A stretch of DNA of 64,000 bases from Roseomonas sp. Its GTDB lineage: Bacteria > Pseudomonadota > Alphaproteobacteria > Acetobacterales > Acetobacteraceae. This document shows, in pieces, positions 56,181 through 61,892 of the stretch (the stretch's first letter is position 1; every line of letters begins with the position of its first letter). The position numbers and the translations under genes were made by a program. Under the pieces are notes generated by a model. That model saw nothing but the letters and a program-made list of their open reading frames with translations. It was not told the origin of the DNA and did not search any database. The stretch spans positions 124,001 to 188,000 of the forward strand of contig JADCFA010000018.1 of NCBI GenBank assembly GCA_020249775.1, read 5' to 3'.

Positions 56181-57110
56181 ATGATCGCCGCCCATGCGGA
56201 TTGGAGCCTGGATGCGCGCAAGCGCTGGGTCAGCATCGCCCGCCGCCAGGGGAAGCATTGGCAGGCCAGCGCCCCGCGCTTGGTGGGCGACCCGGCCAGC
56301 TTAGCAGTGCATTTGCTTACCGAAGGCAGCCCCGCCGCCTTGGGCCTGGATCTGCCGCTTGGCGTGCCGAGGGGTTTTGTCAGCAAGCGCGCTGAACAGG
56401 ATTTCCCGGCCTTCCTGACGGGACTCGCCGGAAACACTGATTTTTTCGCGGTATCCCCAACCCTGGACACCGTCTCCCCCGCCCGGCCTTTCTACCCGGC
56501 GCGGGGCATTAAGGGCATGACGCGCTTGGCCCATGCGGCGGCACTTGGCCTGCCCGATGCCGCTGGCCTGTCCCGCTTGTGCGACCGCGCCACCGCAGAA
56601 CGCCCCGCCGGCGCGCCGGTGTTTTGGACGCTCGGCGCCAATCAATCTGGCAAGGCCGCCATCAGTGCCTGGCGCGATTGGCTCGCCCCCGCACTTGCCG
56701 CCGGCGCACCCTTCCGGCTTTGGCCCTTTGCCGGGGCGCTGCATGATCTGCTCCGCCCTGGTCAGCTTGCGATTGCTGAGGTCTATCCGGCGGAAGCCTT
56801 GCGCCATCTGGGGCTGAAACTGGCAGGATCAAAACGCGCTGAAGCACCGCGCCGGGTACTTGCCCCCGCACTCCGCGATGCCATGGCCGCACTCAACGTT
56901 AGCGCCGACGCGATCTTGGCCGAGATGATCCAAGCCGGCTTTGGCACCGACGCCGCTGGTGAAGATCGCTTCGATTCCCTGATCGGCCTGCTCGGCCTGA
57001 TTGGCGTGGTGGATGGCAAGCGCCCCGATTTCATCCCCGAAGACCCGATGATCCGCGCCTGGGAGGGCTGGGTATTGGGCCAAACCGCCCTACCCCTGCA
57101 CCAAGCCTAA
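56181..57110 (+). CDS. DUF429-like protein (putative RNase H-fold nuclease)
   Basis: A 309-residue protein. The N-terminal HADWSLDARKRW and LGLDLPLGVP, and the C-terminal EDRFDSLIGLLGLIGVV, resemble the acidic positions of DUF429 proteins. That family is predicted to have an RNase H fold but no activity is known. GAGGGG precedes the ATG. The last 4 bases overlap the convergent Lrp gene. Confidence 0.72.
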   Translation: MIAAHADWSLDARKRWVSIARRQGKHWQASAPRLVGDPASLAVHLLTEGSPAALGLDLPLGVPRGFVSKRAEQDFPAFLTGLAGNTDFFAVSPTLDTVSPARPFYPARGIKGMTRLAHAAALGLPDAAGLSRLCDRATAERPAGAPVFWTLGANQSGKAAISAWRDWLAPALAAGAPFRLWPFAGALHDLLRPGQLAIAEVYPAEALRHLGLKLAGSKRAEAPRRVLAPALRDAMAALNVSADAILAEMIQAGFGTDAAGEDRFDSLIGLLGLIGVVDGKRPDFIPEDPMIRAWEGWVLGQTALPLHQA

Positions 57111-57583
57111 CCCAAGGGCACCCCGGCGGCATCCTTCGCGGTTCTGATCGTCTGGAGGGTCTGCACCCGCAGCACGGAAGCCGCCCCGGTCAGCCGGGCG
57201 GTCAATTCATTTTCATGCGCCGTATTGCGCGCCACGAGTCGCAGCAGGAAATCCCCGCCACCGCGGATCATGTGGCATTCGCGCACCTCCGGCCAGGAAG
57301 TCGCCAGCGCCTCAAACGCATCCAGCACGCTTTGCTTTTGCGATTCCAGGCCGACAAGCGCGAAGAACATTACCTCCCACCCCAGCGCGGTGGGGTCTAT
57401 GTGGGCATGGTAGCCGCGAATGACGGCTTCTTCTTCCAACCGGCGTACGCGGCGCAAACAGGGCGGTGCGGAAAGATTGACGCGGCGCGCGAGTTCGACA
57501 TTCGTGATGCGGCCATCTGCCTGGAGTTCCGCCAGAATCTGGCGGTCCAGAGCGTCCAGATCGGGCTCGGCGCTGGGTTTCAT
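57107..57583 (-). CDS. Lrp/AsnC family transcriptional regulator
   Basis: A 158-residue regulator: N-terminal HTH ([20 protein letters not shown], about 10-29, then [19 protein letters not shown]) and a C-terminal RAM ligand-binding domain ([13 protein letters not shown]). Members sense amino acids. The ATG at 57583 was chosen because AAGGGCGG precedes it; a GTG at 57595 is alternative. Target genes unknown. Confidence 0.92.
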
Positions 57584-57723
57584 GGAATTGGGCACCGCCC
57601 TTCATTGCTCAAAACCGGTCCCTCGCGCAATATCATTCCAAGATCAAACGGCCGCAATTCATTGGCTTGCCCTGCCGGGGCAATCATCCGATATCCGCGG
57701 CAGCAATTGATGGGTGCGGATTC

Positions 57724-58695
57724 GTGGCCGAGACATTCCAAAGCAAGCTACTCATTCTGGGCGCCGGGCCGGCCGGCTATACGGCGGCGATCTATGCCGC
57801 GCGGGCAGGGCTTTCGCCGCTGCTGGTCGCGGGCATGCAGCCGGGCGGGCAGCTGACCATCACCACCGATGTCGAAAACTACCCAGGCTTTGCGGAGGCC
57901 GTGCAAGGCCCCTGGCTGATGGACCAGATGGCGGCGCAAGCCACGCATTGCGGCACCAAGGTGGTGCAGGATGTCATTACCTCCATTGATCTCACGCGCC
58001 GGCCCTTCCGTGCGGTGGGCGATTCCGGAGATGTCTATGTCGCGGATGCGCTGGTGATCGCAACCGGCGCGCAGGCGCGCTGGCTTGGCATTCCGGGTGA
58101 GAAGGAATTGGGCGGATTTGGCGTTTCCGCTTGCGCCACCTGCGATGGTTTCTTTTATCGCGGCAAGGATGTGGCGGTGATTGGCGGTGGCAATTCCGCG
58201 ACCGAGGAAGCGCTGTATCTTTCCAACCTTGCGCGCCATGTCACGCTGATCCATCGGCGCGATTCCTTGCGCTCAGAGAAAATCCTGCAACAGCGGCTTT
58301 TCGCGAAGCCCAATGTCTCAATCATGTGGAATACGCTGACGGAAGAAGTGCTGGCCGATACATCAGGCCGCATGCCGGTCGCGCGCGGCTTGGCGCTGCG
58401 TGATCGCATCACTGGTGAGGCGCGCGAATTGAAGGTGGATGGCGTTTTTGTCGCGATTGGTCATTCGCCAGCGACAGCACTTTTCAAGGGCCAGATCGCG
58501 ATGGATGCCGAAGGCTATATCGAAACCACGCCGGGCAGCACGCGCACTTCCATCCCAGGCGTCTTCGCTGCCGGCGATGTGCAGGACAAGATTTATCGGC
58601 AAGCGGTCACCGCCGCCGGCACCGGCTGCATGGCAGCACTTGAGGCGGAAAAATACCTTGCTGCGCTTGAAGCGGGCCACGCGGCGGCAGCCTGA
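57724..58695 (+). CDS. trxB: Thioredoxin reductase
   Basis: A 323-residue NADPH-dependent thioredoxin reductase. FAD binding is by [18 protein letters not shown], the redox centre is CATC (about 138-141), NADPH binding is [10 protein letters not shown], and the second FAD motif is [10 protein letters not shown]. The start is GTG at 57724, preceded by GGGTGCGG. It is followed at once by a LysR gene; in rhizobia trxB adjoins lsrB in the same way. Confidence 0.95.
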
Positions 58696-59585
58696 TGCCG
58701 ACCGATTGGGACAAGCTCCGTATCTTTCACGCGGTGGCGGAGGCCGGGTCCTTCACCCATGCGGGTGAGACACTGAACCTCAGCCAATCCGCCGTATCTC
58801 GGCAAATCCAGGCTTTGGAAGAAGCGCTGAATGTGCCGCTGTTTCATCGCCATGCGCGCGGCCTGATCCTGACCGAACAGGGCGAAACCCTGAACCGCAC
58901 GGTGCGCGAGGTTTTCGCGAAACTCGCGATGACTGAGACGATGTTGACCGAAAGCCGAGAGCGCCCGGCGGGGCGGCTGAAAGTGACTTCTACCATCGGC
59001 TTTGGCAGTACCTGGCTGGCGCCGCGCTTGAAGAAGCTGCTCGATATTCATCCGGAAATCAGCGTGACATTGCTGCTTGATGATTCCGATCTGGATATTG
59101 CCATGCGCGAAGCGGATGTTGCGATCCGTATGCATGCGCCGCGGCAACCAGAATTGATCCAGCGCCATATCGCCAGCTTCGGTTGGCGAATTTGCGGTGC
59201 GGCTTCCTATCTGAAGACCATCGGCATCCCGCAACGGCCGGAGGATTTGGACGCGCATCGGCTGATCATCTATGGCGATTATCAGCCGCCGATTGACAAT
59301 ATCAATTGGCTGGCTGAGGTCGGCCGCCGCCCTGGCACGGCCCGGCGCGCGGCGGTGGAACTCAATTCCATGCCCGGCATGGTGCAGGCGGTCCGTAGCG
59401 GCCTTGGGCTGGCGGCGCTGCCCGATTACATCGGGCCGGAGCTTGATGAATTCGTCCAGGTCCTGCCCGGGGTGAAGGGGCCGAAGATTGAAGCCTATTT
59501 CGTCTATCCGGAAGAAATGAGGCATTCCAAGCGTGTAGCGGTTTTCCGGGACTTTCTGGTGGCGGAGCTGACCGGCGCGCTGTGA
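58695..59585 (+). CDS. lsrB: LysR-type regulator, LsrB/VtlR-like
   Basis: A 296-residue LTTR: N-terminal winged HTH (AGSFTHAGETLNLSQSAVSR) and a type 2 periplasmic-binding effector domain. The family member placed next to trxB in Sinorhizobium, Agrobacterium and Brucella is LsrB/VtlR, which controls envelope and oxidative-stress genes and activates AbcR small RNAs. The match is by synteny and by the RNA gene that follows. Its ATG overlaps the trxB stop by one base. Confidence 0.82.
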   Translation: MPTDWDKLRIFHAVAEAGSFTHAGETLNLSQSAVSRQIQALEEALNVPLFHRHARGLILTEQGETLNRTVREVFAKLAMTETMLTESRERPAGRLKVTSTIGFGSTWLAPRLKKLLDIHPEISVTLLLDDSDLDIAMREADVAIRMHAPRQPELIQRHIASFGWRICGAASYLKTIGIPQRPEDLDAHRLIIYGDYQPPIDNINWLAEVGRRPGTARRAAVELNSMPGMVQAVRSGLGLAALPDYIGPELDEFVQVLPGVKGPKIEAYFVYPEEMRHSKRVAVFRDFLVAELTGAL

Positions 59586-59609
59586 CTGAATGTTACAGCA
59601 AAGGGCTAA

Positions 59610-59630
59610 GCCATGCGCTTTTTGCATGGC
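59610..59630 (+). promoter_or_regulatory. Palindrome, candidate LysR-type operator
   Basis: Arms GCCATGC (59610-59616) and GCATGGC (59624-59630) surround GCTTTTT. It contains the T-N11-A pattern (TGCGCTTTTTGCA) typical of LysR sites, about 50 bases before a -10-like TATAAG at 59673. It is well placed for activation of the downstream small RNA by the neighbouring LysR protein. Confidence 0.45.
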
Positions 59631-59683
59631 CGCGTAGTGAAGAACGGGAACCACAACCGGGGCGAGAGCGGCTATAAGCTAGG

Positions 59684-59790
59684 CATCCGACGTTGTTCGG
59701 AAGGGGTCCGTTGATCCCTCGTCTCCCAGACGTGAAGCCTCCCTGTTGACTTGGCCCGGAAACCTTCTGGTTTTCGGGCCATTCTTTTTT
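59684..59790 (+). ncRNA. Candidate AbcR (alpha-r15, suhB-type) small RNA
   Basis: About 107 bases between lysR and the Bug genes with no ORF. A likely promoter -10 TATAAG is at 59673-59678. Structure visible by eye: a first hairpin TCCGA/TCGGA (59686-59701), a second hairpin CGTCT/AGACG with loop CCC (59720-59732), an unpaired CCTCCC (59738-59743), and a strong terminator GGCCCGGAAACC/GGTTTTCGGGCC (59753-59780) followed by ATTCTTTTTT. Two pyrimidine-rich anti-Shine-Dalgarno segments plus a terminator are the alpha-r15 pattern. Location next to an lsrB-like gene also fits. No covariance search was possible. Confidence 0.68.
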
Positions 59791-59871: not shown

Positions 59872-60843
59872 ATGTCAGGAACAACACGCCGTGGTGCCTT
59901 GGGGGTGGGGGCTGCGTTGCTCGCCGCGCCAGCTATTGGTCAATCGCTTTGGCCAACCGGGCCTATTCGCTTCATCGTCACCTTTCCTGCGGGCGGTTCT
60001 ACTGATCTGCTCTCACGCATTTGGTGCAACCGCATGGCGGAAATCACCGGGCAGCCCTTTGTGGTGGAAAACCGCTCAGGCTCCGGCGGCAATGTCGGGA
60101 CAGAGGCGATTGCGCGCGCCACACCTGATGGCAATACGATTGGGCTTGCTTCAGTCGCCTCGCTCTCCATCGCGCCCACCTTGTATCGGCGCCTACCCTT
60201 CGATGTGGCGCGCGATTTTTCTTATATTTGTGGCCTTTGGCAATTGCCGAATCTGCTGATCACGCGGCTTGATTTTCCGGCAAATAGCGTGCCGGAACTG
60301 ATACGTGAGGCGCGCGCGAACCCTGGGCGCTTTACCTTCGCAAGCTCTGGCGCTGGCACCACGCTTCATCTTTCCGGTGAATTATTCAAGCAAATGGCGG
60401 GTGTGGATATTCTGCATATCCCCTATCGCGGCGGTGCGCCGGCGCAGATTGATCTGCTGGCTGGGCGCGTTGACATGATGTTCGGCAATATCCCGGAAGC
60501 AGTGCGCGCCTTTCGCGAAGGCAAGGTGAAGGCGTTTGGCGTGACAGGCCCGCAGCGCAGCCCGCAAGCGCCGCAAATTCCCGCCATTGGCGAATTTCTG
60601 CCCGGCTATGCCGTGACATCCTGGGGCGGGGTTTGCGGCCCGGCCGGCATTTCGCCCGCCATTGTTGCGCGCATTGCCGAACTTGGCCGGCAGGCGGTGG
60701 AAAGCCCCGATGTGCGCCGCCGGTATGAGGAAGCCGCCGCGGAAGTATGGTGGGTATCGCCGCAAGACTTGGCGCAATTCCGCCGCGCCAATGAGGAAAG
60801 CTTCGCCCCCCTGATCCGCGCTGCGGGCGCGGTGGTGGAATAG
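59872..60843 (+). CDS. Tripartite tricarboxylate transporter receptor (Bug/TctC family), tandem copy 1
   Basis: A 323-residue periplasmic binding protein with a Tat-like signal (TRRGALGVGAALLAAPAIG) and the Bug signatures PIRFIVTFPAGGSTDLL and VVENRSGSGGNVGTEAIA. The Shine-Dalgarno is GGGGGAAG, complementary to C-rich parts of the small RNA 5' to it. It is closely similar to the next gene, so the pair arose by duplication. Ligand unknown. Confidence 0.93.
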   Translation: MSGTTRRGALGVGAALLAAPAIGQSLWPTGPIRFIVTFPAGGSTDLLSRIWCNRMAEITGQPFVVENRSGSGGNVGTEAIARATPDGNTIGLASVASLSIAPTLYRRLPFDVARDFSYICGLWQLPNLLITRLDFPANSVPELIREARANPGRFTFASSGAGTTLHLSGELFKQMAGVDILHIPYRGGAPAQIDLLAGRVDMMFGNIPEAVRAFREGKVKAFGVTGPQRSPQAPQIPAIGEFLPGYAVTSWGGVCGPAGISPAIVARIAELGRQAVESPDVRRRYEEAAAEVWWVSPQDLAQFRRANEESFAPLIRAAGAVVE

Positions 60844-60911
60844 CCATTGACGCGCTTTGCACAAGCCAAAGCCAATGCGATATGCTTCACGTGAATAACG
60901 GGAGGATCACC

Positions 60912-61892
60912 ATGAAAAACACCATCACCCGCCGCACCACCTTGGGCCTTGGCGCGGGGTTGCTCGCCGCGCCCGCCATCGTCAGCGCGCAGGGCAATTG
61001 GCCAACGGGCCCCATCCGTTTCATCGGGCTTTTCCCGCCGGGCGGCGGCACGGATATCCTGTCGCGCATCTGGTGCATCAAAATGAGCGAAATGACCGGT
61101 CAGCAATTCGTGGTTGAAAATCGTTCCGGTTCCGGTGGTAATGTCGGCACAGAAGCGATTGCGCGGTCCACGCCGGATGGCAATACCATTGGCCTTGCTT
61201 CCGTTGCGGCCTTGGCGATTTCACCAACGCTTTACAGCAGGCTTAATTACAACCCGGCGCGCGATATCGCGCTGATTTCGGGCCTGTGGCAATTGCCGAA
61301 TTTGCTTGTGGTGAACAATGATGTTCCTGCGCGGACTGTCCCTGAGCTGATCGCGCTGCTCAAGGCCAATCCGGGCAAATATGCTTTCGCGTCATCCGGT
61401 TCCGGCACCACGGTGCATCTCTCGGGCGAGATGTTCAAATTCATGGCCGGCGTGGATATGCTGCATGTGCCCTATCGCGGCGCAGCGCCGGCGCATATTG
61501 ACCTGGCCGGCGGGCGCGTTCACATGATTTTTGACAATATCCCGCAAGCCCTCGCCTTGGCGCGAGACGGCAAGGTGCGTGCGCTGGCCGTGACAGGTGC
61601 GCAGCGCAGCCCGCAAGCGCCAGAAATACCCACCATGGCGGAATTCCTGCCCGGGTTTGAAATCAATTCCTGGGGCGGGGTTTGCGCGCCCGCCGGGATT
61701 TCCCCCGCACTTATCCGGCGCATCAATGAGCTCACCAAGCAGTCGCTGGAAACCGATGATATCAAGCGGCGCTTTTTTGAAAACGGCGCGACCACGTGGT
61801 ACACGACGCCCGAGGAATTCGTGAAATTCCGCGCCGATAATGAAGCCGCCTTCGCGCCGCTGATCCGCGCTTCCGGCGCCAAGGTGGATTGA
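60912..61892 (+). CDS. Tripartite tricarboxylate transporter receptor (Bug/TctC family), tandem copy 2
   Basis: A 326-residue Bug receptor sharing most of its length with the preceding gene (GSGGNVGTEAIAR, RSPQAP, PAGISPA blocks). Signal: RRTTLGLGAGLLAAPAIVSAQ. The ATG at 60912 follows GGGAGGA, an exact 6-base match to the complement of CCTCCC in the small RNA. Only 68 bases separate the two genes, and no TctAB genes are adjacent. Confidence 0.93.
   Translation: MKNTITRRTTLGLGAGLLAAPAIVSAQGNWPTGPIRFIGLFPPGGGTDILSRIWCIKMSEMTGQQFVVENRSGSGGNVGTEAIARSTPDGNTIGLASVAALAISPTLYSRLNYNPARDIALISGLWQLPNLLVVNNDVPARTVPELIALLKANPGKYAFASSGSGTTVHLSGEMFKFMAGVDMLHVPYRGAAPAHIDLAGGRVHMIFDNIPQALALARDGKVRALAVTGAQRSPQAPEIPTMAEFLPGFEINSWGGVCAPAGISPALIRRINELTKQSLETDDIKRRFFENGATTWYTTPEEFVKFRADNEAAFAPLIRASGAKVD

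Follow-up and report, generated by a model that had tools for sequence, protein, structure and literature searches.

The window analysed here, a stretch of 64,000 nucleotides from Roseomonas sp., contains genes for an Lrp/AsnC-type regulator, the thioredoxin-disulfide reductase TrxB and an LsrB/VtlR-type LysR regulator, followed by the gene for a small RNA whose predicted start lies 98 nt 3' of the end of lsrB on the same strand (Table 1). An initial annotation of this DNA had placed a small RNA gene beside trxB-lysR at 59600-59790; the gene is confirmed within narrower limits, since the RNA itself occupies ~59684-59790 on the + strand and nucleotides 59600-59683 form its promoter, which the earlier span had included. 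The -10 element named at the time is kept in the genus alignment, and no recognisable sigma-70 -35 box was seen upstream of the RNA on inspection of the sequence. Two tandem TctC/Bug binding-protein genes (59872-61892) lie directly 3' of the small RNA gene; the half of the genus that is more distantly related mostly lacks them there.

Table 1. Features of the trxB-lsrB-small RNA region, in positions of the window.
Feature	Position	Strand	Evidence and remarks
Lrp/AsnC-type regulator	57107..57595	-	Open reading frame; lrp-trxB-lsrB-sRNA order shared with Sinorhizobium and Rhizobium (annotation of loci L263 and L264)
trxB, thioredoxin-disulfide reductase	57724..58695	+	TIGR01292, 397 bits (cut-off 343)
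lsrB/vtlR-type LysR regulator	58695..59585	+	44-46% identical to LsrB/VtlR of Rhizobiaceae, with an almost unchanged HTH
LsrB-type box ATGCG-N5-TGCAT (ATGCG-CTTTT-TGCAT)	59613..59627	+	Begins 71 nt upstream of the predicted 5' end; extended by GGCCG to 59632
-10 box CTATAA	59672..59677	+	Sequence and genus alignment; predicted transcription start ~59684
Small RNA	~59684..59790	+	Genus and class alignments, fold, R1 and R2 models
Stem-loop 1 (UCCGA...UCGGA)	59686..59701	+	Covaries within the genus
Stem-loop 2 (GGGGUC...GAUCCC)	59703..59718	+	Covaries class-wide
Stem-loop 3 (CGUCU-CCC-AGACG)	59720..59732	+	CUCCC motif at 59723-59727 in the loop; genus and class alignments
Unpaired linker UGAAGCCUCCCUGUUGACU with anti-SD CCUCCC	59734..59752	+	Invariant in the genus; likely seed
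Intrinsic terminator and U-tract	59752..59790	+	13-bp stem 59752-59781, then TTCTTTTTT
TctC/Bug periplasmic binding-protein gene	60912..61889	+	Candidate target by prediction; GGGAGGAUCACC before ATG; among the 100 best predicted targets

The architecture proposed earlier for this RNA is confirmed. Its three hairpins are present, its two C-rich anti-Shine-Dalgarno (anti-SD) segments correspond to CUCCC motifs in the loop of stem-loop 3 and, at 59739-59743, in the linker, and its strong terminator with a T-run is present. Folded as a 109-nt RNA, the sequence reaches -47.6 kcal/mol, compared with a mean of -32.4 kcal/mol for shuffled sequences (z -4.1; 1 of 200 shuffles as good). Across 30 loci of the genus, a 39-nt core, GATCCCTCGTCTCCCAGACGTGAAGCCTCCCTGTTGACT, shows no change while its flanks drift. 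Conservation extends far beyond the terminator; its restriction to the terminator had been named in the initial annotation as a result that would refute the gene. In the genus alignment, six base pairs carry changes on both sides, 98.5% of the cells are paired and the covariation score is reached by none of 500 shuffles; the alignment of 36 sequences from across the class has changes on both sides in 11 of 17 pairs (again 0 of 500 shuffles). Stem-loop 1 covaries within the genus, and stem-loop 2, which never varies there, covaries across the class. Judged by its invariant core and covarying helices, the RNA gene is under selection.

The region is present in 41 of 59 relatives, and in all 30 genus loci that were fetched the RNA lies 3' of trxB-lysR. 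A covariance model derived from the genus alignment (R1) was searched against 250 Acetobacteraceae genomes and 385 genomes of the class (E<=0.01), and lsrB was located in the same genomes with the LysR protein of the window as query. R1 matched 109 of the Acetobacteraceae genomes and 174 of the class genomes, and 91 of the 99 strong matches in Acetobacteraceae are situated 82-965 nt 3' of lsrB on the same strand; lsrB itself occurs in 240 of the 250 Acetobacteraceae genomes, and many of its carriers there are without an R1 match. Among the best 150 lsrB genomes of the class, 82 harbor an R1 match in this slot (median distance 195 nt), and these represent 44 of the 66 alphaproteobacterial families from which the 150 genomes come; a small RNA gene beside trxB-lsrB outside the Rhizobiales, as put forward in the initial annotation, is real. 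In f39 and other families the slot retains C-rich hairpins to which R1 assigns hardly any score or none. The exact core was recovered from at least 119 contigs of public genomes, with lsrB no more than 1 kb upstream in 89 of the 119 contigs listed; several of the remaining listed contigs end at the edge of the locus, and others hold copies located elsewhere. Carriers named among the matches listed include Roseomonas, Neoroseomonas, Belnapia, Azospirillum, Reyranella, Thalassospira, Kiloniella, Magnetovibrio, Inquilinus, Nisaea and Minwuia. By our own definition of an LsrB-linked anti-SD small RNA (encoded no further than 1 kb from lsrB on its strand, with a CUCCC core and a terminator, and conserved across families), the RNA of the window belongs to this group. 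At the sequence level there is good support both for the gene and for its linkage to lsrB across the class. Some members of the genus possess second copies of the small RNA 2-14 kb from the first (G020:C4:136807-136906; G009:C1:181896-182001), which recalls the AbcR1/AbcR2 duplication. Furthermore, the 63-kb plasmid pOA307_63 of Octadecabacter antarcticus carries an lsrB-type regulator together with a SorX-like RNA (L273:2504-3600), indicating that the pair can travel.

The regulator encoded upstream is assigned to LsrB/VtlR by its position next to trxB, an order whose conservation in the class had been noted before (PMC8844928, PMC7486931), and by its LsrB DNA-binding domain, which is nearly invariant among the proteins of the window, Rhizobiaceae and Rhodobacterales. 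Cys144 and Cys273 are the redox cysteines conserved in LsrB of Rhizobiales (PMC11975290); when the Agrobacterium protein is used as reference with the numbering of that study, valine is found at both columns in LsrB of the window. As these cysteines are replaced, the signal sensed by the window LsrB may differ from that of its rhizobial counterpart. The same pair is also missing in Azospirillum, Tistrella and Rhodobacterales, in which the DNA-binding domain is kept.

The LysR-type palindrome said to lie just upstream of the RNA is found there and proved to be one instance of a class-wide box, ATGCG-N5-CGCAT, which precedes the slot RNAs with a spacer that is nearly always 5 nt long. A box scoring at least 9 of 10 is present at 37 of 65 loci, compared with 2.2% of letter-shuffled sequences. 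Its distance to the RNA amounts to 71 nt in the window, 72 nt for AbcR1 of three Rhizobiaceae and 75-76 nt for the SorX-like RNAs. In Sinorhizobium and Agrobacterium, abcR1 is activated by LsrB/VtlR, with LsrB acting via such a site (PMC8844928, PMC7486931); the published LsrB consensus, GCAT-N3-TG-N3-T, is located at -61 to -49 of abcR1, and AbcR2 does not depend on LsrB there (PMC8844928). The GCAT of this consensus is contained in the class-wide box, and the box is absent upstream of the LsrB-independent AbcR2. Activation of the small RNA of the window by LsrB is likely.

To predict targets, the linker was paired with the ribosome-binding regions of 1068 start sites on 1.26 Mb of the organism's own genome. 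Among the 10 best predicted targets, 5 are genes for solute-binding proteins where 0.6 would be expected, and among the 100 best there are 20 where 5.7 would be expected; these genes comprise the TctC, SBP_bac_5, DctP and Peripla_BP_6 classes, and none of 60 control linkers that kept CCUCCC between shuffled flanks attained either count. Pfam scans agree, with binding proteins among 18 of the top 100 genes vs about 4 of 100 random genes. Once the seed genes are left out, binding-protein genes have only a weak z-score for the flanks alone (p 0.13), and strong SD sequence therefore accounts for part of the target signal. The top-ranked single site, in front of an SBP_bac_5 gene (C55:12730, E -26.1), is not conserved across the family outside the genus; most members of the genus retain its CAGGGAG, but with varying flanks (mean z -1.25). 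Both anti-SD motifs are in place, binding-protein genes are enriched among the computed pairings, and the RNA may use these motifs against transporter mRNAs in the AbcR style. The predictions make periplasmic binding-protein genes a plausible target class, a statement that applies to the class and not to individual targets.

A conserved and structured RNA gene, its linkage to lsrB and the box before it are features of the DNA itself. Taken as a whole, they are best explained, with a probability that we put at roughly three in four, by an independently transcribed, LsrB-activated antisense RNA of the Hfq type, ~107 nt in length, that represses mRNAs of periplasmic binding proteins. The LsrB/VtlR-type protein from the upstream gene would bind the box ~71 nt before the start and activate the promoter. 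The RNA would then expose CCUCCC in its unpaired linker, assisted by the CUCCC that stem-loop 3 presents in its loop, and pair with the ribosome-binding sites of its target mRNAs, thereby blocking their translation, presumably with the help of Hfq. Its main targets would be mRNAs of uptake systems, namely those that encode the periplasmic solute-binding proteins (TctC/Bug, SBP_bac_5, DctP, Peripla_BP_6). The RNA is one of a set of anti-SD RNAs encoded beside lsrB across the class; in Rhizobiaceae the slot is held by AbcR1, in Rhodobacterales by SorX-like RNA.

The small RNA of the window lies downstream of lsrB/vtlR with trxB further upstream, and its promoter is preceded by an LsrB box at -71 (-72 for AbcR1); where it lies, which control element precedes it and how its anti-SD motifs are arranged all make it, on comparison of the loci, an RNA of the AbcR type, and on present evidence it may well act like AbcR. 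The initial annotation was correct to this extent, but membership in AbcR by sequence does not hold. The ar15 model (RF02345), which represents AbcR, scores the slot RNAs next to lsrB in Sinorhizobium, Rhizobium and Shinella at 97-127 bits, and tandem ar15 genes follow lsrB in Sinorhizobium meliloti, Rhizobium leguminosarum and Shinella; in the window, it gave no match at E<=10 between 59300 and 60100, where at least 40 bits had been looked for, and none over the cut-off in 385 genomes of the class. We have accordingly rejected ar15 as the identity of the RNA, which should not be called AbcR. One could still regard it as a diverged true AbcR, which would carry AbcR in the strict sense beyond the Rhizobiales. 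The lrp-trxB-lsrB slot, the box distance and the anatomy with two anti-SD motifs, all common to both, speak for this, as do bridge forms in family f41 (loci L119 and L143) that combine an AbcR-like loop, UUUUCCUCCCAG, with the linker CCUCCCUGUUAGACUU. Nevertheless, the failure of ar15 is matched in the opposite direction, as R2, a class model built without SorX or AbcR sequences, finds no AbcR at E<=1 and hence provides no sequence bridge; we consider this relationship unlikely, though the best of the alternatives. At one of the f41 loci (L119:2353-2927), up to three tandem lsrB-adjacent RNAs are present, one of which has an AbcR-like loop and a SorX-like linker and is a possible AbcR-SorX bridge. 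Two Sinorhizobium "plasmids" of 3.5-3.7 Mb in PLSDB (CP090106.1 and NZ_CP104131.1, one labelled 'pSymB') carry trxB, lsrB and both abcR genes, and for this reason look like chromosomes or mislabelled replicons.

The search recommended earlier with the suhB model RF00519 had been aimed at the wrong family, as RF00519 describes mmgR/ar8 and not AbcR; when run on the window, it returned 24.1 bits (E 0.013; cut-off 41), and it was discarded as the identity of the RNA. That the RNA is one more mmgR/ar8 copy would agree with this score and with the succession of CCUCCCU and GACUU before the terminator, but two bona fide ar8 RNAs are encoded elsewhere in the same genome (L001:1501-1575 on C45, 54.5 bits; L002:1501-1578 on C16, 45.6 bits), R2 gives them only 17.1 and 10.5 bits, and SorX fits the window equally well (E 0.01), so that this identity appears improbable. 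Two weaker mmgR/ar8 candidates (L003, L004) are also present in this genome; ar8 RNAs are known class-wide, and CrfA sponges them in Caulobacter (PMC12559287). Equally hard to uphold is the view that the RNA is processed from the 3' UTR or terminator region of lsrB without a promoter of its own, as is SorX from ompR-1 in Rhodobacter (PMC8625941, PMC6238624): its start on the lsrB strand, 98 nt beyond the end of that gene, and the lack of a recognisable -35 box would suit such an origin, but a conserved CTATAA and an LsrB-type box with AbcR1-like spacing lie between lsrB and the RNA, and rhizobial AbcR1 has its own promoter (PMC8844928).

Overall, the window contains no Rfam match at the gathering threshold. 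SorX (RF02784) attains 21.9 bits (E 0.01; cut-off 46.6), and ar35 (RF02346) reached only E 0.9 in the organism's own genome. None of 20 R1-type slot loci scanned from other families arrives at an Rfam cut-off either; the best score among them, 43.8 bits with SorX, marks SorX as the nearest catalogued relative in sequence. In Paracoccus, Pseudorhodobacter and Octadecabacter, SorX-like RNAs (52-54 bits) occupy the slot beside lsrB, and R2 detects these at 28-30 bits (E ~1e-6). By model scores, the RNA of the window is nearest to SorX/ar8-type RNAs. SorY as the slot RNA of family f42 was dropped, that family being small and its matches weak.

The recurrence of a small RNA at lsrB in dozens of families lets the rhizobial regulator-RNA pair appear as a class-wide module. 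We give an even chance to the idea that AbcR, the SorX-like RNAs of Rhodobacterales and the family of the window are lineage versions of a single ancestral lsrB-side gene under the same LsrB box in much of the Alphaproteobacteria, an ancient module in which the RNA evolves much faster than promoter and regulator. AbcR and SorX have hitherto been studied as separate, lineage-specific RNAs; the openly accessible literature that we searched contains no report of an lsrB-slot RNA outside the Rhizobiales, Acetobacteraceae included, and no paper linking AbcR with SorX through this slot. Should the three share one slot and one regulator, the LsrB-small RNA uptake circuit would be far older and wider than its plant- and animal-host setting, and it becomes testable in free-living Azospirillum and Roseomonas. 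R1-type RNAs from at least 44 families, of which neither the window nor the 20 scanned loci are recognised at an Rfam cut-off, would then exemplify a fixed regulator and site whose driven RNA diverges almost beyond recognition.

Among known systems, mmgR/ar8 (SisA-D in Caulobacter) shares with the RNA of the window an unpaired CCUCCCU that precedes GACUU and a terminator; it differs in its locus, its lack of a link to lsrB and the existence of separate ar8 genes in the same genome. SorX and SorY (RF02651) of Rhodobacterales have in common with it the AUCCCUCG...CCUCCCUGUUG-ACUU core, whereas SorX of Rhodobacter itself resides in the 3' UTR of ompR-1 and not beside lsrB. AbcR1 begins with one long 5' hairpin instead of three small hairpins before the linker, no sequence model of either RNA matches the other, and the window-type RNA, unlike AbcR1, is a single-copy gene in most genomes. 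Nevertheless, AbcR1 and the RNA of the window are alike in their slot, in the LsrB-type box and its distance, in an anti-SD motif in both loop and linker, in their terminator and, by prediction for the latter, in transporter mRNAs as the likely class of targets.
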